A stretch of DNA of 64,000 nucleotides from a virus, in the IMG/VR virus record IMGVR_UViG_3300044640_000597, positions 21,966 to 85,965 of that record, one strand, 5' to 3'. Position 1 is the stretch's first letter. Each line of letters opens with the position of its first letter. Under the pieces are notes generated by a model. It did not search any database and had not been told where the DNA came from. It was given only the letters and a program-made list of their open reading frames with translations. Below are positions 3,801 to 63,319 of the stretch, piece after piece. The translations under genes and the position numbers were made by a program.

Positions 3801-6800
3801 TCTGACAATCCAATCTCATTATTTACACTCTCGAGGTCTCTTCTGAGTCTCTCTTCGATAGCAGCATGGTAAAGAGCAGTCATGTCTGCCCCAGGAATAG
3901 CCGTCTCTCCAGCTATACCTGCATTATAGTAGTATAATTCAGTAGACTTTACGTTAGCAATAGCATTCTTTTTAATCTGTCTTCCTAATATAGTCTCTGA
4001 ATATTCTTTTGCTGCTGGAACAGTCTGTGGGAAACCGAGAGCTGATGTAGAGTTTCTATTGATTTTTACATTTCTAAAGAAGCCTCCTTGAATACGAGAC
4101 CACCCTTTCATATTAAATACATTTAACTGGACACCCTTCTTAGCAGATACGGCACTAGCTGTGTGTATCTTTTTCATTCCTGCATAAGGATTGTTTGCTT
4201 CATTAGGGTTGGCTTCCATCCTCATCCTCATATCATCCATTACAGGGAATGCTTTAGTATACGACTTAAGCAATGGGAAGTAAGCTGTCTTAGTAAGGTC
4301 TACAGCAACAGTTCCTCCTATAGATTTAACTTCTTGTCCAAATGGTTTATAAGGTCTGATAGGGATATCCTGTCCAACCTTTGCTCCTCTTGGAAGATCT
4401 TTTACACCAGCAGGATATACAAACTTTCCTTCTGGATCGTTTTTATAATTATTGTATGCTACCTCATGGTATTGAAACCATTCTCCTTCTCCCTGCATGA
4501 TTTCCCTAAGCCAATCGATGGATATCAAAGTCAAACCATCGTGCTCTTCAAAGCTACCTGCTTTGTACTCATCAGTGAATGCTGCTTCAGCTGCTGTGTA
4601 TCCTGACTTAAGCAACATTTCTTTTGTACGATTGGCCCAATTGTTCATCTCTGTTGCTATGGCTGCAGTAACCTGACCCATAGGATCATCGAATACCATC
4701 TCGTTATATTCAGAGATAGCTCCATAACGCTCATCCATCCAAGGCACATAATTCCCTAATCCATCCTTTTTAGCTAGTGTGTTCTTTTCAGCAAGCTTAG
4801 TACGAGGAGTAGTCAGAAGTCTTTGACGTTTAGTAAAATCTTCAATGTTTTTAAACAAAGCTCTGTTACCTCTAGTCAGTTTAATGATTTCATTTCTCCC
4901 TAAGTCTTCATGTATAAGGAAGTCTTTAAGCAAAGGAATCATAGCCTGTACAAAAGGAGAGTTGCCTTGCTCGTCTTTCTTTCTTTTAGACAAATCTACC
5001 CCTGCGATATCAGCCCACTTCTTAAGCAGTTTAGAATTTACATCATTCTTTCTGTCTGCCTCTTCTATTGTAGCAGCCATCTGCTTAGCTTGACCAGTGT
5101 AAAATAAAGACAGCCCACTAATCATTTCTGTAAGTTCATTTCTAAACTGCTGCAGCTCTTGAGATAATGGAAGATTGCTTTTTGTTTTTCTAATAAACTC
5201 TTCTGCAAGGTCAGACATTCTCATAACCCCTATACTAGAGTTAATAGCTCTGTCTGTTACAATTCTGTTCCCTAGTTCATCTATACCATCAAACTGCATG
5301 AACTCATCACTTAGGCCTCTCATCTGACCAGTATGGTAATCTGGGATAAGAGTAACATTAGGATCTTCTTTAGATGCAGCTATTGTAGCCCTAGCTTGTT
5401 TGATTCTTAAAAGGTCTTGTAGGATTGCATCTCTAAATACATCACTAACACCGTTCTTCTTATTGAACTTAGTATCAAAGTGACCTTTAATCCTAGGCAT
5501 AAGCATCATATCAAAACGAGCTCTATCTGCCTGAGCAGGTACAGCTACGTAATAATATTTCTCATTAAAGTTATTATTGTAGATCTCAAGTCTTGTTAGT
5601 ACAGAGTCTACATTATTGAAGTCTTCATAATCCAAAGCATCATCTCCGTAGTCTCTGATACCTGCCAGTGGGGATGTCTTAAAGTCCCTTAGGAATTCTT
5701 CATTCTGTGTAAGATGGAAGAACAGATGACTAGGCATCATGTCAGGTGGGAAGATAAACTTATCCTTTCTGTACAGAGGTAATGCCTGCTCTTTGTTTGC
5801 AGTTACATCCTTTCTAATTTGGAAAGGAAGTTCAGAAAGAGTTGTAGCCATATTAACAGGATACATTGCTGACCCTGTAGGAGTTACAAAGCTTTCAGCT
5901 ACTCTGCTAGTAAACAATGGAGCTAAGCCTGCAAGGAACTTCATACCTTGCTTTTCTGTGTTGAAGTATAAAACTGGTTTTTCTTTTTTACTTTCTATAC
6001 CTACCCCTTCTCTGCTAGTACTTACATTTGCTATAGCTTCAACCATTTTAGATAACCTAGCTCTTTCAAAGATTGCATCAAAAGCTTCTTTTCCTATAAC
6101 AGTATGGTTTTTTACTTTACCAGCTTCGGTCTTACTTATCTTGAAACCTTTGTTGATCAGATTCTGGACATTAATTATAGTGTCCATTTGATTCACATTG
6201 CTACCAAAGTTAAACCCTAGCTCCCATATGAGACTCCCTAATGCCCATGCAGGAGAATCTATGACAGGTTCTTTATTAAAGAACTCTGCATTTGGATCTT
6301 CATTAGGTTTAAACTGCATCCTATTGAAGCCGTAGGCTTTTTTAAAAGCCTCTTTAATTTTATTAAACTTAGCAGTCTTAACAACAAAGCCTGAAGCTTC
6401 GTCATCTTCTTCTGATAGTGTCTTTGCAAATACAGCTCTACTTGATCCTTCCTCTCCTTCTTCCTGACCATTGATTTCAACCATCTGCCCAGTCCACTGT
6501 TTAACAGCTTTCTGTTCAGTTGTAGAACTATTAGCATTAAGTACCTTACCCTGACTCCCCAGAATTGCCATGTTAAACTCTGCTAGAGTTTGAGCAAATG
6601 TTTTATACAACAAGGCTCTCTCATTACCAGGCATACTCATTATACGTTGGTTAATGGAAGAGTAGTCTGGTCTATACTTAGAAGCCTCTATAAGCTTCTC
6701 TTCCATCTCCTGAAAAGAACCTACGTCTGCCCATAACTCTGAGAGTTGTTTGTAGACATACCTTAAAGACCAGTACTCTGTCTGATCAGTAAAAATGTCA

Positions 6801-15397: not shown

Positions 15398-17695
15398 TTA
15401 AAAGCCTGTTACAAGTCCACTACCAATAAGTCCTTTAATAGCAGGTTCATCTAAGTTATGTTTTGTAGCTGTACCTTTTTCTTTATCAGTTTTTAGGTAA
15501 GGAGTACCATCTGGATACGTGATTGAAATATACGGAGAGTCGTCCCCTCTACTATAGATATTAACCAACACTCTCTCCCCATTAATTTTAATAGTCTCTA
15601 GAGTTCTAGCTATTCCAGGTTGCATTGATCTTTGTTGCATAACTAGAGTACCAAATCTTACTTCAGGATTATTGATAGCGGCATTCAATCCTTCATTCTT
15701 AATTTGATTTCCATCGTATACAGCAGTCATTACTGTTGCCGTATCTCCTTCACCTTTAACTAGATTGAGCTTCCATGAATTGTTTCCTACTCTCCAACCA
15801 GACTCTTTAATTTTATATCCTGCTAGTTCTGGAGAGTTTCCATTAAGTTGTTTAACAGTACCATCTGGCATCATGACTGTTACAATTTCTTCTGGCATCA
15901 CTGGTCTTCCATCTTTACCACCAAAGAAATCTTTTACTGCATTAGTAGTTGCAATATCTGTCTTCTTACCCATACCAGTCTCAATCAATCCCATATTGTA
16001 TGCAGCAGACTCTTTAATCTCTGCATATTTAGTATTGACTTTAGTTTCGAGCTTTTCTCTAAATACTTCTGCAACATTAGTTGTCCCTCTTTGATACTGA
16101 GTAACAGGCCTGTCATATGCCATATTAATCTCTGCACCTCTGTAGTCTGTGGGGGCATTTACTCCTGCATCTCCATATGCACTTACGTATTGTGCAAGAG
16201 CTCCTTGACCATATTGCTTATCAAAAGCTGATTGGAAATTCATATAATCCTGATCACCCGTGTTGTCAAATATTCTTTGGATTTCTGTATAGAGATCTCC
16301 AGTAGTATAGCTAGGGAACATAGCTTTAACTACTCCTGTTATTTTACTATCAACAGCATCAAGATCGGCCATGCTTACAGCTGAGTCAGCAGCTTCTTTA
16401 AGTTGGCTTTGTACTCTAGACTTTTCATTAACAAGAGTATTAAGTGTCATGTTCAGATTACTCTTAACCTCATCAGAGTATTCTGGATGGTCTGCTAATT
16501 CTTTAGTAAGGTTTGCAATCTTTTCATCAGTTGTAGCAAGATACTGCATCTTACTCTTATGGTCAATACCAGATACATCCATATCAGCTCTAACCATATC
16601 GTAGTTATAAAGTGCAACCATTGATGATGCTCCACCTCCACCACTACCACTTCCATCTCCTCCAGCACCAGTAATTCCAGACTCTTCCTTGTAAGTGAAG
16701 AGACCAGCTTTCTTCATTGCATATTCTTCTACTGGGCTAAGTATCTCTGATCTATAACTTTCTCTCATCAAATCACTAGCAAGTGCTGGGTCTTTCATAG
16801 CAGCATCTATCTTAGCACTAGCATCTGTAAGAGCAGTTATAGCAGTTTGGTATTGAGCTTTCTTTGCCTCATCAGTTTCTAATCCAGCTTGAGTTTTTAA
16901 CTCAGCCATCCTATCTTGATACTGCTGTTTTTGAGCTGCAAGAATTACAGGGGTCTGCCCACTCTTATCAGCTTCATAAGTTTTCATATCTGCCATCTGA
17001 GTAAGATAAGCAGCTACATCAGGCTCTTGAATTACAGCATTGTATACCTGCATTACATCTGCTTCTGGTATCTCTTCTGTATATTCCCCTACTTTACGTT
17101 TGTATGTTCCGTTCTCATCTGTAACTACACTACCCTCTTCATAGCCTCTCTTCTTCATTTGAAGAATCTCAAGCCTTTTAGCAACGAGATCCATTATCTT
17201 AGGATCTCTAACAATGGTAGGAGCTGTGAACATTGTTCCACCCTTTACTCTTCCAGTGGCAGGATCTATCTCGTATCCTTTATATCCTTTAGTAATGTAA
17301 GATGCAGCTTTGTTGTACTGTTCAGAGTTAATGTCTCCCTTTTTATACTGCTCATCAATGCTAGTAAGGGCTGCCTGGTATCTTTCGTAGTTTTCTTTTA
17401 TCGGGGAATAAGCTGTAGCAAACTCCTTAGATGCTCTATGAACAGCAAAGCCTAGGTTCTCATAGTCCCCTCTTGTAGATAGACTCTCTAGGGTAGTGTT
17501 AATCTGCTGTTGAAGCTCGTTCTTTTTTTTAACATCGTTCTCAAAAGGAAGAGCAGCTTTCATCTGATCAACAGCTAAAGCTAACTCATCGTTAGCTTTA
17601 AAATTTTCTACAAACCTATTACGTAAAGTCTCAGATATTTTTACTGATTGAGGATCTACGTAAGTACTTACATATTCATTAAATTTGTACGGCAT
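15398..17695 (-). CDS. Large coiled-coil virion (cargo-type) protein
   Basis: This 765-residue protein is mostly charged helix. The N-terminal 300 residues look like continuous coiled coil, a flexible glycine/serine linker lies near 340-360, and the C-terminal 250 residues are mixed alpha/beta. No enzyme motif was found. It lies 6 bp downstream of the 1319-residue protein and 20 bp upstream of the 2344-residue one, within the block of giant virion proteins. By position it corresponds to the internal or cargo proteins that crAss-like phages package with the RNA polymerase. That is a positional inference; the sequence itself only shows a long helical protein without signal peptide or membrane segment. 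Confidence 0.6.
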   Translation of the reverse strand: MPYKFNEYVSTYVDPQSVKISETLRNRFVENFKANDELALAVDQMKAALPFENDVKKKNELQQQINTTLESLSTRGDYENLGFAVHRASKEFATAYSPIKENYERYQAALTSIDEQYKKGDINSEQYNKAASYITKGYKGYEIDPATGRVKGGTMFTAPTIVRDPKIMDLVAKRLEILQMKKRGYEEGSVVTDENGTYKRKVGEYTEEIPEADVMQVYNAVIQEPDVAAYLTQMADMKTYEADKSGQTPVILAAQKQQYQDRMAELKTQAGLETDEAKKAQYQTAITALTDASAKIDAAMKDPALASDLMRESYRSEILSPVEEYAMKKAGLFTYKEESGITGAGGDGSGSGGGGASSMVALYNYDMVRADMDVSGIDHKSKMQYLATTDEKIANLTKELADHPEYSDEVKSNLNMTLNTLVNEKSRVQSQLKEAADSAVSMADLDAVDSKITGVVKAMFPSYTTGDLYTEIQRIFDNTGDQDYMNFQSAFDKQYGQGALAQYVSAYGDAGVNAPTDYRGAEINMAYDRPVTQYQRGTTNVAEVFREKLETKVNTKYAEIKESAAYNMGLIETGMGKKTDIATTNAVKDFFGGKDGRPVMPEEIVTVMMPDGTVKQLNGNSPELAGYKIKESGWRVGNNSWKLNLVKGEGDTATVMTAVYDGNQIKNEGLNAAINNPEVRFGTLVMQQRSMQPGIARTLETIKINGERVLVNIYSRGDDSPYISITYPDGTPYLKTDKEKGTATKHNLDEPAIKGLIGSGLVTGF

Positions 17696-59018: not shown

Positions 59019-59324
59019 ATGAAACTTAACGTATACTTCGACAATGCTTCTGTTTTTAACTTTGAGAAACTCGACGTTATCGTTGGGGAGAAGTTTAAAG
59101 TAGAGGCTACCGAAGCTCCTGAAAATGTTGCATGGTTCTTCGATAACGATCCAGTTGTACAAGCTGAGGCCATGGGGAACCAAGCAATTATCACAGCAGC
59201 TCAAGAGGGGATGACTAACGTACTATTTGTAGTTAACAATAGTCAAGTTATTCACAAGTTTACTATTAACGTAGTAAATCCCGTAAATTTGAACCCTGTA
59301 GTTCTAAACGTAGAGCTAAAATAA
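59019..59324 (+). CDS. Small Ig-like domain protein, second copy type
   Basis: A 101-residue protein with strands KLNVYFDNASVFNFEKLDVI, VAWFFDNDPVV, NQAIITAAQEGMTNVLFVV and HKFTINVV, the order of a BIg2-like Ig fold. It shares the fold but little clear identity with the preceding gene. A terminator follows the stop, so the two Ig-like genes form a short unit of their own. It may be surface-exposed on the virion or the infected cell; no signal peptide is visible. Confidence 0.65.
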   Translation: MKLNVYFDNASVFNFEKLDVIVGEKFKVEATEAPENVAWFFDNDPVVQAEAMGNQAIITAAQEGMTNVLFVVNNSQVIHKFTINVVNPVNLNPVVLNVELK

Positions 59325-59346
59325 ACCCCGTCTTAACCTAAGAACT

Positions 59347-59374
59347 AGCCTCCTTATTGGGGGCTTTTTCTTTT
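59347..59374 (+). terminator. Intrinsic terminator after the Ig-like genes
   Basis: AGCCTCC pairs with GGGGGCT (one G-T pair) around a TTATT loop, followed by TTTTTCTTTT. It closes the Ig-like gene pair. Confidence 0.85.
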
Positions 59375-59474
59375 ATACCCTATGAGGTATAATTTTAATG
59401 ACAACTCATGTATTATACCTTATTGGGTGTAATTGGGTGTGTTATCGGTCAAGTTAACTGCGTAAAAACTTGAC
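59374..59474. repeat. Inverted and direct repeats in the intergenic region
   Basis: A 20-bp imperfect inverted repeat has arms at 59374-59393 and 59412-59431 (17 of 20 matching). The second arm runs into a tandem direct repeat ATTGGGTGT (59422-59430 and 59432-59440). A perfect 8-bp inverted repeat GTCAAGTT/AACTTGAC (59448-59455, 59467-59474) follows, then a run of eight Ts. It may be an operator, replication element or a second terminator. The rest of the 59325-59601 gap has no gene. Confidence 0.55.
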
Positions 59475-59601
59475 ATAAAATTTTTTTTAGGGAAATTTTC
59501 TGAGAGTGTTGTCCTACGTATTCAAAGACCCCCGCTAAGTTTTGGAGGATAAGTATATCCCCCATAATAATTTATTCGTAAACTTCATAAATCTAAACAC
59601 A

Positions 59602-59901
59602 ATGGCTAACACCACAATGTTCACACCTAGCACAGCAAAGCTTTGTGCTCGTAAGAAAGACAACGTAGTTTTCTCTCTTTACTTATCTAATAGTGTAAAG
59701 GCTAGCGCCAATTACAATATTAAGAAAGTAAAAGGTAAATTGCACTTCGAAATCGAAGCTCAGAACACATCTAAAGAAGATGACAAAGTTCTGATGACTG
59801 CATTCGTCTATAAAGACGATGCCAAGTGGAATGAGATTCTCACTTGGTGTGTGCAGGAAGGTCTTCTCGGAGAAGACGAAGCACAAGCTGAGATGAACTA
59901 A
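59602..59901 (+). CDS. Small early protein, unknown
   Basis: A 99-residue protein, starting at ATG 59602 after the A-rich leader typical of the other plus-strand genes; an upstream ATG at 59542 would add 20 unlikely residues. It begins ANTTMFTPSTAKLCARKKDN, has a basic beta-strand centre (NIKKVKGKLHFEIEAQ) and an acidic helical end (WCVQEGLLGEDEAQAEMN). A very strong terminator follows, so it is a single-gene unit and probably strongly expressed. Unknown function; a small host-takeover factor or DNA-binding protein is possible. Confidence 0.65.
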   Translation: MANTTMFTPSTAKLCARKKDNVVFSLYLSNSVKASANYNIKKVKGKLHFEIEAQNTSKEDDKVLMTAFVYKDDAKWNEILTWCVQEGLLGEDEAQAEMN

Positions 59902-59915
59902 GAAGCTTGAAAATT

Positions 59916-59939
59916 GGGGGACATTCGTCCCCCTTTTTT
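59916..59939 (+). terminator. Perfect intrinsic terminator
   Basis: GGGGGAC-ATTC-GTCCCCC followed by six Ts: a 7-bp GC-rich stem with tetraloop, 14 bp after the stop of the 99-residue gene. It insulates the long non-coding region that follows. Confidence 0.92.
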
Positions 59940-60001
59940 GGTTTATTTTTATGTCGATACTCGTTACTAAGCTCGTTACTAATAAATTATTATGTGTGTT
60001 G

Positions 60002-60856
60002 GAGAGATTGATTGCCAATACTCTCACACTCATTAAGTGTGGTATCATGATGACTATCTAACTAGTTGTATAACATGGTATCACACTTTATCCTCTTGTG
60101 TCTGATTAACAGAGACACAGATAGGGTATGACTGTAACCCATAGCAATACAGTTATTATACATTCTAGTTATAACTTTAACTGGTAAAACTTGTACTGAT
60201 ATACAGGTAATCCTATACTAGATAGGTTCTTGGTTCCGTGGCTTGACATCCATTGTTAAAACAAGTTGTTATATGATACCTTAAATTAAACCTGGAATAT
60301 GGTTGCACCGCTTGTAGGTCATGGTGTGTAAAAGTAAAACAGCCTTCTAATAATCCTAAGTGGATAGCTTCTCACTGATGCTTAAAGTGTTCTTTTTATT
60401 TAATTACTTATTTATTTATTTTCCTTAATTAATGGGTGGGATTAATGTAGTTAATATCCTATACCCAAAAACCTAAGAAATGCAGAATATGTGTTGATAC
60501 TTACTTAAACACTATTCCACCTATCAGTACTCTAAAAGAGAGGTTGTTAAACTGATATTAAAAGGTGTAAGACAATCCTATTTAGTCCTAAGCATGACAC
60601 TAAACTGCTTATTCATAGTATCGTTACTCTTTCTTTAACCGAGTATCTATCCAGTAAGCTGCTGGCGTTTGTGGGTGTCCAGATAACCCTCATATTTAAT
60701 GCACCATAACTATCTTCCCAAGGGATAGCAGTTGTAATAACTAATGATATTGTAATAGGGTCTCAACAATACTGTTGCAACAGGTTGAGTAGGAATGCAC
60801 AATTCCCTAAATATCAAGACAGCTATGTTTGTCATTAGTATTAGTTGTTACAACTG
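60002..60856 (+). ncRNA. Candidate large structured RNA in a 1-kb gene-free region
   Basis: Between 59940 and 60918 no credible gene exists on either strand. The stretch is filled with self-complementary segments: 60002-60025 (9 bp, one bulge), 60026-60040, 60097-60119 (7 bp), 60128-60156 (9 bp), 60434-60466 (11 bp, three parts), 60485-60517 (10 bp, one bulge), 60518-60567 (CACCT/AGGTG and TATCAGT/ACTGATA around CTCT/AGAG), 60710-60728, and a 17-bp stem 60729-60745/60840-60856 enclosing further helices and the palindrome 60772-60783. Long-range pairs also fit (60041-60048 with 60273-60280; 60188-60194 with 60261-60267). An AT-rich tract lies at 60388-60432. It may be a large phage RNA comparable in size to GOLLD or ROOL, or a replication origin. 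The strand is assumed from neighbouring genes. Confidence 0.5.
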
Positions 60857-60881
60857 AGTGCAGAGGGGATATTAAATTAGT

Positions 60882-60891
60882 AATCAATAAC
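60882..60891 (+). promoter_or_regulatory. Leader element AATCAATAAC, copy 1
   Basis: This 10-mer lies 27 bp before ATG 60919 and recurs exactly at 61431 and 63425, each time in an AT-rich context with TTAAT or TTAGT just upstream. A shared early promoter or ribosome-loading element is possible. A TATGTTTG box (60824-60831) is further upstream. Confidence 0.45.
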
Positions 60892-60918
60892 TTAAATCAT
60901 ACTCAAACACTTAACATC

Positions 60919-61155
60919 ATGAAACAAGCTGTTAAATTCTTATCAAAGATTGCTCAATTAGTACTAATAGCATGTGTAGTATTCGTTACTCCTGCTATTG
61001 TACACTGTATTGTTACCTTTACGTTCAGTCATTACATCAATGACTTGAGCTCGACTATTTACTGTGGTCTTATGAGTTTCATCTCATTGATTGTTACTGT
61101 ATTCTACATTGCTATTGAAGCTGAACGTATTGAAGATAAACCTTCTAACTTCTAA
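60919..61155 (+). CDS. Small two-TM membrane protein
   Basis: A 78-residue protein from ATG 60919; an extension upstream to 60829 would run through the 17-bp stem of the structured region and is rejected. Two hydrophobic helices (about 10-32 and 48-66) are separated by a short loop with FSHYINDLSS, and the tail is charged (EAERIEDKPSNF). It is followed 12 bp later by a lipoprotein gene. It may act on the host envelope early in infection, for example in superinfection exclusion. No family recognised. Confidence 0.62.
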   Translation: MKQAVKFLSKIAQLVLIACVVFVTPAIVHCIVTFTFSHYINDLSSTIYCGLMSFISLIVTVFYIAIEAERIEDKPSNF

Positions 61156-61167
61156 TACTATAGCACT

Positions 61168-61359
61168 ATGAGTAACAAGACTAAATTTGCTGAGGATATG
61201 ACAGCCTTCGGGTTGTCTATCCTTATCATTATCCTTATTGTGATAATGATGACATCATGCTCTACATCTAGAGAGTATGGATATCAAGACCATCTAAGAT
61301 CTACTCACCACAAGAACTTTATCTCTAAAGATAATGGTGGTTGTGGGTGGAATAAGTAA
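61168..61359 (+). CDS. Small lipoprotein
   Basis: A 63-residue protein with an N-terminal hydrophobic segment (LSILIIILIVIMMTSCS) ending in a lipobox-like MMTSC with Cys31. The mature part would be 33 residues, ending GGCGWNK, a Gly-Cys-Gly-Trp end I recall from small lipoproteins of Bacteroidota and their phages. It follows a two-TM protein gene. It is likely anchored in the envelope; possible roles are superinfection exclusion or outer spanin. It is far from the lysis cassette, so the latter is less likely. Confidence 0.65.
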   Translation: MSNKTKFAEDMTAFGLSILIIILIVIMMTSCSTSREYGYQDHLRSTHHKNFISKDNGGCGWNK

Positions 61360-61396
61360 GGACTTTACCTATTGGACTTCATACAATAGCAGCTTA

Positions 61397-61417
61397 ACGG
61401 TGAGGCTTAAACCGTTC
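61397..61417 (+). terminator. Hairpin after the lipoprotein gene
   Basis: AACGGT (61397-61402) and ACCGTT (61412-61417) form a 6-bp stem, followed by CCTTTTAAT. The T-run is short, so termination may be partial. Confidence 0.45.
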
Positions 61418-61430
61418 CTTTTAATCTGTA

Positions 61431-61440
61431 ATCAATAACA
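61431..61440 (+). promoter_or_regulatory. Leader element AATCAATAAC, copy 2
   Basis: Exact copy, 15 bp before ATG 61456, preceded by TTTTAATCTGT, nearly the same as the sequence before copy 3 (TTTAATCTA). Confidence 0.45.
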
Positions 61441-61455
61441 AACACATATAAAATC

Positions 61456-62094
61456 ATGACACAGTTAAAACAAACAGCGGTCGAATGGGTATTCGACAAG
61501 ATGAGTAATGTATTAGCTGGTAATTCCAGTGTAACTACTCAAGAAATACTAGAGCAAGGACTAGCAATGCATCAAGAACAAATTGAACAAGCTTGGATGG
61601 ATGCAGAAGATAATCTGCTAACCGAAGAGTCAGCTAAGTTCTTTGCAGAGAAATACTACAACAAAACATATAAAGTAGTAGAGGAGGAAGTAGTGGATGA
61701 CGAAGGTGATGGCACTATTCCTCAAGCTGAAGACTGGTTCATTGATATGGTCAATGAAGATGCTCATCCAGATGATGACTCAGAGTATCGTCAGTATCGT
61801 GAACGTGCTGATGTACCAGAATACATCATTGCATCTATTAGTCTTGATGCTTACGAGACATATGTATTCGAAGCTACTGCTGATGGTAACATAGTAACCT
61901 TCGATGAGTATGGTGGATTAGCAGCGAGATGGGGTGATGCTAGATGGTGGGATGCTGAAGCTGCTGTTAAATCATGTATGAGAAACAGCTATGATTTAGT
62001 ATCTGTTAAAGGTAATCACTATCTATTCAAGCTAGTTAAACCTGATGAGCTCACTCATTTCGATGGTGATGAATCAGATAGAATCAGCTATTAA
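61456..62094 (+). CDS. Acidic early protein, unknown
   Basis: A 212-residue acidic protein. The first 55 residues (TQLKQTAVEWVFDKMSNVL, then a GLAMHQEQIEQAW helix) match a short N-terminal module (KQTAVEWL...QA..ME.EQI) that I know from many small proteins of Bacteroidota and their phages. The middle is Asp/Glu-rich. The C-terminal 90 residues (YIIASISLDAYETYVFEATA, RWWDAEAAVKSCMRN) form a separate alpha/beta domain. The next gene starts 2 bp after the stop. Function unknown. Confidence 0.68.
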   Translation: MTQLKQTAVEWVFDKMSNVLAGNSSVTTQEILEQGLAMHQEQIEQAWMDAEDNLLTEESAKFFAEKYYNKTYKVVEEEVVDDEGDGTIPQAEDWFIDMVNEDAHPDDDSEYRQYRERADVPEYIIASISLDAYETYVFEATADGNIVTFDEYGGLAARWGDARWWDAEAAVKSCMRNSYDLVSVKGNHYLFKLVKPDELTHFDGDESDRISY

Positions 62095-62095
62095 T

Positions 62096-62464
62096 ATGAA
62101 GACACTTACCTACATCAAGAGAGTTGAGATAGAAGAAACAATACCGTTTCCTATCATCACATTTGTTGCTGAGAAAGTGCGAGTTAGTACAGGAGATAGC
62201 TCATGGTTTGACATGGGCTATACTCCTAGACTCGATGGTCTGACAGTACATCAGTATCGTAAACTCCATAATGCTTGGGATAGAGATATCGATATAGCCT
62301 TAGAAGAATATGTAAAGACTACATATAATCTACGTAGTGGATGGGGTCAAGTAGACTACCATGTCTATTCAGCTAAACAACTTGGTATGCCTGAGCTTAC
62401 TAAAGTTGATCCAAAGTTTAACGATGATCATGCTGATCTAGTTAGAATGTTTACAGGGGCTTAG
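62096..62464 (+). CDS. Small early protein, unknown
   Basis: A 122-residue protein from ATG 62096, two bases after the preceding stop; a longer reading would overlap that gene. It starts KTLTYIKRVEIEETIPFPII with beta strands and has a helical Trp/His-rich centre (HQYRKLHNAWDRDIDIALEE). It does not resemble a known family to me. Its stop codon lies inside the loop of a terminator-like hairpin. Confidence 0.62.
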   Translation: MKTLTYIKRVEIEETIPFPIITFVAEKVRVSTGDSSWFDMGYTPRLDGLTVHQYRKLHNAWDRDIDIALEEYVKTTYNLRSGWGQVDYHVYSAKQLGMPELTKVDPKFNDDHADLVRMFTGA

Positions 62465-62473
62465 TCCCCTTTT
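62456..62473 (+). terminator. Terminator overlapping the stop codon
   Basis: GGGG (62456-62459) pairs with CCCC (62466-62469) and TTTT follows; the TAG stop lies in the loop. A short stem, but well placed. Confidence 0.55.
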
Positions 62474-62572
62474 ACTAATGCAGCCAGTGTAACAACTGAA
62501 GGTCACAAGCCCTTTAATGCAGAGTGGTAAAATCAATTCATTCATTTAATTTATTATTTAATCATCAAAATC

Positions 62573-63178
62573 ATGATGAACAACACAATCAACAGTGGCT
62601 CGTTGCAGGGATTGCAAGCGGGTCAAACCCTTTTACTCCAAGCTCGTAAGGTTAATGGAGGTAAGATTCAATTGGAATTTGCTGAGATTGTCAAAACACA
62701 GTCTACTGCAGCAAACCCACTTGCTATCTTTAACAAGTCAGACGACCGTTTCTCACAAGGCAATGGTGCTCGTCGTGCTTGGCTTACTGCTGAAGCTAAG
62801 GATGCTTCGGTTTATCTCAACATCAACCTGATGGATGATGCTGATTGGGAGGTTGACCAAATGGGACGTGAGATACTCCCATTGAATGTCATCAATCCAA
62901 TTGCTATCATCAATGCGGAAGCATTCCCATTGAAGGTGCAAGTTGAGGAGACTGTTACTCCTACAGATTGGCAGGCAAGCAACGTCGAAACTGCGGCTAA
63001 GCGTCGTGGTAAAGATGGGGACTTCATCACTCACCAAGGTATGTACATCTTTGCTAACACTCGTGTAGTGTTTAACAAAGCTAATCACATCTTCCTTGAA
63101 GTGGATGCTGCTAAGTCAAATGTATCTACTGGCATTCCTGCAAGTGGTAGCTTTGACTCAAGTCCGTTCTTCAGCTAA
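62573..63178 (+). CDS. Early protein, possible single-stranded DNA-binding role
   Basis: A 201-residue protein of alternating strands (QTLLLQARKVNGGKIQLEFA, VYLNINLMDDADWEVDQMG, FITHQGMYIFANTRVVF), ending in GSFDSSPFFS. The beta-rich core and an aromatic, flexible C-terminus recall SSB-like proteins, and it lies just before the replication exonuclease. However, no OB-fold signature is certain, and the tail has few acids. Unknown is the honest label; SSB is a testable guess. Its leader lacks the AATCAATAAC element. Confidence 0.6.
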   Translation: MMNNTINSGSLQGLQAGQTLLLQARKVNGGKIQLEFAEIVKTQSTAANPLAIFNKSDDRFSQGNGARRAWLTAEAKDASVYLNINLMDDADWEVDQMGREILPLNVINPIAIINAEAFPLKVQVEETVTPTDWQASNVETAAKRRGKDGDFITHQGMYIFANTRVVFNKANHIFLEVDAAKSNVSTGIPASGSFDSSPFFS

Positions 63179-63191
63179 TTATAGCTGAGTA

Positions 63192-63271
63192 AATCAGGTA
63201 GCTCAACTGGTAGAGCACTGCAAGTTCTGTTGAACTCTTGCATGGATATGGGTTCGAATCCCATCCTGATT
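63192..63271 (+). tRNA. tRNA-like element with abnormal anticodon arm
   Basis: Acceptor AATCAGG/CCTGATT (7 bp), D-arm GCTC-AACTGGTA-GAGC and T-arm ATGGG-TTCGAAT-CCCAT are perfect. The 31 nt between the D and T arms (23 expected in an ordinary tRNA) fold as TGCAAG-TTC/GAA-CT-CTTGCA (63219-63242) with a TGTT loop, so no 7-nt anticodon loop exists. CCA is not encoded, and the discriminator is T. A small hairpin (63172-63187) just upstream may help processing. It is either a tRNA-like decoy or a tRNA broken by insertion; amino acid cannot be assigned. Confidence 0.6.
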
Positions 63272-63319
63272 TCAAAAACCCTCTCATTGTGTACTACGAA
63301 TAACCATTGAATAGACTAT

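Follow-up and report, generated by a model that had tools for sequence, protein, structure and literature searches.

The window, a stretch of 64,000 nucleotides from the viral record IMGVR_UViG_3300044640_000597, contains a region at 59940-60918 that is noncoding, structured and modular. PHROGs annotation names a terminase, a portal and a major head protein, and no lineage. The original prediction held that the region follows a perfect terminator and lacks a credible ORF, and we find both: the terminator has a stem of 7 pairs (59916-59941), and no ORF of more than 41 aa lies wholly within 59940-60918 on either strand. On the minus strand, a 121-aa frame at 59683-60048 lies mostly over the upstream gene; a 108-aa frame at 60829-61155 corresponds to the downstream gene with an early TTG taken as its start. 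A hidden gene was rejected, as there is no ORF above 41 aa wholly inside the region and none common to the relatives read. The features of the locus are as follows.

59916-59941, plus strand: intrinsic terminator of the upstream gene and 5' border of the region, GGGGGAC-ATTC-GTCCCCC-TTTTTT at 59916-59939 (7-bp stem, 4-nt loop, T run)
59975-59994, plus strand: GTTACTAATAAATTATTATG, which may be a promoter or operator; kept in four near relatives, including L002, L004 and L010
59995-60029, plus strand: module A, hairpin or pseudoknot at the leader start; kept in L002, L004 and L010
60035-60088, plus strand: module B, long hairpin GUGUGGUAUCAU/AUGGUAUCACAC; two-sided compensatory changes in 7 relatives
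60094-60155, plus strand: module C, hairpin UGUGUCU/AGACACA, from alignment with L002, L004 and L006
60160-60365, plus strand: module D-E, two-part structured domain of ~200 nt; 10 pairs with two-sided change in 5 sequences
60367-60395, plus strand: module F, hairpin CACU-GAUGCUUAA-AGUG; sequence kept in L004 and L006
60583-60611, plus strand: module H, H-type pseudoknot CCUAAGCAUG...AAACUGCUUA; at least 156 distinct copies
60614-60689, plus strand: module I, stem GUUACUC/GAGUAUC with hairpins CCAGUAAGCUGCUGG and GGGU/ACCC; 5 pairs with two-sided change in 14 sequences
60692-60872, plus strand: twister-like candidate self-cleaving ribozyme, from covariation (108 and 28 sequences), R1 model matches and free folding
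60919-61155, plus strand: small membrane-protein-like ORF, the first gene after the twister-like element
62472-62530, plus strand: second twister, type P1 (RF03160, 52.1 bits, E 4.9e-10, below the 67.2-bit gathering score)

The predicted structure of the region is borne out on the plus strand, which folds with a minimum free energy of -236.1 (z -3.33 against 20 shuffles) versus z -0.90 for the minus strand. Stability beyond that of shuffled sequence is confined to 59990-60160, where module B lies (z -5.45), and 60692-60873 (z -2.89), both measured on the plus strand against 200 shuffles; with the same settings, 60160-60366, 60366-60580 and 60580-60691 gave z 0.2 to 0.3 and equal shuffled sequence. 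Nearby coding blocks folded in the same way reach z -1.3 to -3.9, so that hairpin density alone is weak evidence; for modules D to I, whose blocks are no stabler than shuffles, we do not count minimum free energy in their favor. The case therefore rests on comparison.

Relatives were collected through the 201-aa protein encoded at 62573-63175, which led to ten viral contigs and, through its alignment, to 79 loci. This protein has no match among annotated phages, and the upstream-gene protein (59602-59898) recovered no relatives when used as bait. DNA similarity searches of the annotated phage collection returned no match either to the region 59940-60918 or to a ribozyme element. In the nearest relatives the same genes flank the locus, but only ~300 to 700 nt lie between those genes, made up of highly similar blocks alternating with replaced or missing stretches. 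Blocks of the window recur in other viral contigs: its own order is B-D-E-F-H-I-ribozyme, then X, then the second twister, and other phages carry, for example, B-H-I-ribozyme, H-D-H2-H-J-ribozyme, K-I-ribozyme or I-hatchet; H2, J and K also recur among phages but are absent from the window. K (GGATTGCAACCTTGTG), H2 (AATAGAAAGG..TGATAT) and J (ATATAATGCGAAGTGAAA) occur in L084, L097, L152, L171 and L185; H2 directly precedes an H pseudoknot, and J is often immediately 5' of the ribozyme. Nearly all modules of multi-module contigs are co-oriented, the sole reversed one being in L287. The twister-like element is missing at this locus in the near relatives L004, L006, L007 and L008, and is thus dispensable. 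The relatives read do not have a conserved ORF in common. In L007, a 78-aa ORF that is unrelated (3972-4208) replaces modules C to I, so this spot takes up genes as well as RNA modules.

Covariation on homologues, the check suggested with the original prediction, revealed many compensatory changes. For modules B, D-E and I these come from small alignments. At the start of the leader, GTTACTAATAAATTATTATG has a 2-mismatch copy on the opposite strand at 59563-59582 (0.03 matches expected by chance), and a promoter near 59975-59995 is our conjecture. Module A has few covarying pairs, and another hairpin stands in its place in L006-L008. The stem of module C reads UAUGCUU/AGGCAUA in L004 and L006, a compensatory change read off the alignment. 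Module D-E is also found in other viral contigs, with E ~100 nt 3' of D. The final GGGU/ACCC hairpin of module I lies immediately 5' of the predicted cleavage site described below. In module H, S1 pairs are formed in 100, 97 and 77% of the at least 156 distinct copies versus 50, 40 and 44% in shuffles. It sits a median of 15 nt past a same-strand stop codon and 52 nt ahead of the next start, and one copy lies in Roseobacter phage CRP-13 (L337, record 15672-15737) between a ribonucleotide reductase gene and glutaredoxin. The H pseudoknot occurs in at least 120 viral-contig stretches, in apparently unrelated phages and usually just 3' of a stop codon. Modules B/C, D-E, F, H and I have no Rfam 15 match in the stretches scanned, and alignments and block searches of viral contigs gave no convincing homologues for 60400-60560. 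Further downstream, module X (61359-61425) is a conserved hairpin pair between a lipoprotein-like ORF and the next gene, with a loop (GAGGCUUAA) similar to that of module F.

The frame of the element at 60692-60872 was first spotted by eye, by comparison with the twister at 62472-62530. Its parts are:

60692-60696/60868-60872, plus strand: P1 (covariation)
60697-60699, plus strand: UAA, with the predicted cut between 60697 and 60698
60700-60704/60858-60862, plus strand: P2 (covariation)
60710-60714/60724-60728, plus strand: P4, with loop UUCCCAAGG (covariation)
60729-60745/60840-60856, plus strand: P5, with insert (covariation)
60863-60867, plus strand: GAGGG, matching the RF03160 consensus
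60717-60719:60865-60867, plus strand: putative T1 pseudoknot (L1-L4), from CCC:GGG complementarity

Free folding of 60692-60873 returns the same four stems, P1, P2, P4 and P5. The 17-bp stem with one G-U pair that the original prediction singled out is real (plus strand, 60729-60745/60840-60856), but it is the P5 of this small twister-like candidate.

A pattern for the 5' half of the element matches at least 119 stretches of viral contigs. Requiring GAGGG and four complementary P2 pairs as well left 113 distinct matches among those listed, and the 108 that parsed without overlap formed the set for covariation. These relatives were selected on UAA, GAGGG and four P2 pairs; UAA and GAGGG are present in 108 of 108 copies, both having been required by the search. 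P4 played no part in the selection; it is paired in 99-100% of the 108 copies and takes many compensatory forms (CUCAC/GUGAG, CCUGU/ACAGG, CUAUC/GAUAG, CUCCA/UGGAG and others). Covariation is also seen across the 108 sequences in P5, P2 pair 5 and P1, none of them selected for, and P2 pairs 4-5 covary in both the 108 and the 28 sequences. The weakest stem is P1, whose first four positions are paired in 60-82% of copies versus 43-69% in shuffles. For 28 diverse sequences we obtained a covariation score of 0.583; shuffles gave 0.196, and slid structures no more than 0.149. The T1 complementarity, CCC:GGG, shows no covariation because it is invariant in the 108 copies. These comparisons show a twister-like fold under selection at 60692-60872.

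We built a covariance model, R1, from these elements alone and without any known twister. Its match to the window element comes in two parts (E 6e-7 and 1e-3), one on either side of the insert, and it finds the Rfam twister, at 62468-62534, with E 1.2e-3; in the window and the genome record it matches nothing beyond these two, and it matches 16 of 20 viral records. The Rfam twister models gave no match to 60640-60920 at E<=10, with the RF03160 gathering cut-off not reached, and none even to the short-insert copies in L086 and L155. Twister-sister was rejected for the element: the Rfam scan gave no match, and its consensus does not seem to fit 60692-60872. The core pattern hit 17 times in 84,980 prokaryote species genomes, and a single hit (L326) is convincing by model match; this 4.6-kb MAG contig also carries module D and is probably of viral origin. 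At L024 and L026, three twister-like cores lie within ~2.1 kb of one contig. In the open-licence literature we found no earlier description of these elements, though one may exist elsewhere.

The element resembles twister-P1 (RF03160) in having P1, UAA, P2, P4 with CCCAAG in L4, and GAGGG, in its L4-L1 complementarity and in the U-A step at the expected cleavage site; its UAA, CCCAAG and GAGGG equal the RF03160 consensus. It differs in that P5 carries a hypervariable insert and P3 is absent, P2 has 5 pairs, the L2 GCC and the GG/CC flanks of L4 are not kept, and Rfam does not score it. Among annotated twisters P3 is present in 78% and P5 in 1% (PMC6154101). Twisters form two pseudoknots, T1 (L1-L4) and T2 (L2-L4) (PMC6154101); for T2 the element offers at most one pair, C60705-G, and the consensus GC:GC is not kept. 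The element has most architectural features of a twister and would be expected to work like one, but it does not reach the RF03160 cut-off. On its sequence, the predicted ribozyme appears to be an uncatalogued twister form of type P1, with a P5 stem bearing a variable insert and no P3.

The gene that follows the element lies on the same strand in 99 of 101 cases. With 70 protein clusters represented among these genes, the element has no fixed partner gene, which is what general transcript processing would lead one to expect. Module I occurs within 400 nt 5' of the element 24 times and 5' of a hatchet ribozyme three times: in L155, L178 and L388 a hatchet, well above the Rfam cut-off, takes the element's place after module I. 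A pistol ribozyme is present in L367, a contig that also carries module I. Hatchet (RF02678) and pistol (RF02679) occur in the same phage group, and hatchet follows module I as the element does, but their folds are unrelated to it and neither is present in the window; the Rfam models of hatchet, pistol, hammerhead, HDV and twister-sister gave no match in 59300-62600 at E<=10. That two ribozymes of unrelated fold can occupy this slot suggests that it is the cleavage that counts there.

The second twister precedes the gene at 62573, has its predicted cut between 62476 and 62477, and is kept in L002, L004, L006, L007 and L010. A terminator-like hairpin, GGGGCTTAGTCCCC (62456-62476), lies directly 5' of this site; the cut would leave it at the 3' terminus of the upstream piece. 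The tRNA-like element placed 2.3 kb from the region by the original prediction is indeed there, at 63192-63272. Its anticodon arm is enlarged (16 nt vs 7 in the model), and ARAGORN assigns it no anticodon. L004 and L007 share both the enlarged arm and compensatory changes in the stem.

The core of the element is near-constant across 109 elements and the P5 insert is hypervariable, ranging from 0 to 153 nt and falling into 88 families by blastn. On average the inserts are stabler than shuffles (mean z -1.0). The window insert (60747-60838) is unrelated to that of L002, although the two cores are nearly identical. Engineered twisters take sensor domains and aptamers, with P1, P3 and P5 named as attachment sites (PMC5052635), and by analogy natural sensing by the P5 inserts is possible.

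The reading that we favor, and regard as probable, is that the region serves as a noncoding leader built of modules, placed between a terminator and an operon of small genes and ending in a twister-class self-cleaving ribozyme. Transcription would start near 59975-59995, and modules A to I would then fold, as covariation supports for B, D-E, H and I. The ribozyme would fold through P1, P2, P4 and P5, all of which show covariation, together with an L4-L1 pseudoknot suggested by invariant complementarity, and, if twister chemistry applies, would cut between U60697 and A60698. This cut would free a structured RNA of ~0.7 kb ending just past module I; the downstream mRNA would then begin with a 5'-OH and the folded ribozyme. 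Some 1.8 kb later, the second twister (62472-62530) would cut between U62476 and A62477, before the next gene, and would therefore divide the operon into separate mRNAs. Lying at ends of upstream products, modules H and I probably protect 3' ends. A comparable role was proposed for hammerheads flanking prophage genes: they would split long transcripts into mRNAs the length of an operon or a gene, and three tandem arrays were shown to cleave in vitro (PMC3088659). There too, self-cleaving elements lie between phage genes; the elements described here have a different fold and are coupled to the recurring upstream module I amid other RNA modules.

The main competitor, unlikely yet deserving attention, is that the leader is a cis-regulatory chain in which the twister-like fold, having lost cleavage or never possessed it, acts instead as an mRNA 5' stabiliser, riboswitch or protein site. 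The position of the element upstream of same-strand genes would suit this, as would P5 inserts that vary as sensor domains might and the acceptance of aptamers at P1, P3 and P5 by engineered twisters (PMC5052635). It fits poorly with downstream genes of ~70 kinds, with the retention of UAA and GAGGG in all 108 copies, though the search required both, and with a hatchet taking the same slot. The inserts could alternatively be the payload, the ribozyme carrying hypervariable small RNAs (for example antisense to hosts or rival phages) or natural sensors. Their 88 families among 109 elements, the near-constant core and the mean insert z of -1.0 are what this would predict, but variable peripheral stems are ordinary in ribozymes, hatchet included, and one cut is expected per element, so the insert would not be released alone; we consider it improbable.

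The original prediction, a single large RNA of the GOLLD or ROOL kind spanning the region and working as one particle or scaffold, fares no better in our estimate. GOLLD and ROOL are phage-borne, long and noncoding and often lie near tRNA genes (PMC12286853), and the region, ~0.9 kb of noncoding phage sequence with a tRNA-like element nearby and a whole-region z of -3.3, is similar in these respects. However, an Rfam search with the GOLLD, ROOL, HEARO and OLE models gave no match at gathering or at E<=10; the locus is modular and variable in length rather than one large conserved fold, its relatives measuring only ~300 to 700 nt with modules lost or exchanged; single modules are found alone elsewhere; and a self-cleaving element at the 3' end would cut such an RNA. 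Least probable of all, and by our judgement very much so, is that the inverted repeats act at the level of DNA, for instance as a replication origin or as recombination sites. Exchange of modules between phages at what is a hot spot, with the 78-aa ORF there in L007, would agree with it; against it, stability is strand-specific, the element points the same way as the gene downstream in 99 of 101 cases, P4 and P5 contain U-G pairs, and module H is a pseudoknot.

Beyond the self-cleaving leader that we favor, a more tentative idea, which we think possible but would not bet on, is that phages use exchangeable RNA modules bounded by interchangeable self-cleaving ribozymes, and that, with hypervariable P5 domains as potential natural sensors, their transcripts are cut under control. 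If true, an environmental phage group would be cutting its transcripts into defined RNAs and mRNAs, with several module families absent from Rfam and one pseudoknot shared with Roseobacter phages. The locus bears on the role of small self-cleaving ribozymes in phages. Here a large twister variant missed by Rfam models follows module I, and a hatchet can equally follow it; since the same module precedes either ribozyme, which end the cut makes and what module I does to that end become testable. Structural and functional studies could start at once from the P5 inserts and from modules D-E, H and I, which are uncatalogued; the element also suggests that counts of phage ribozymes based on models fall short.
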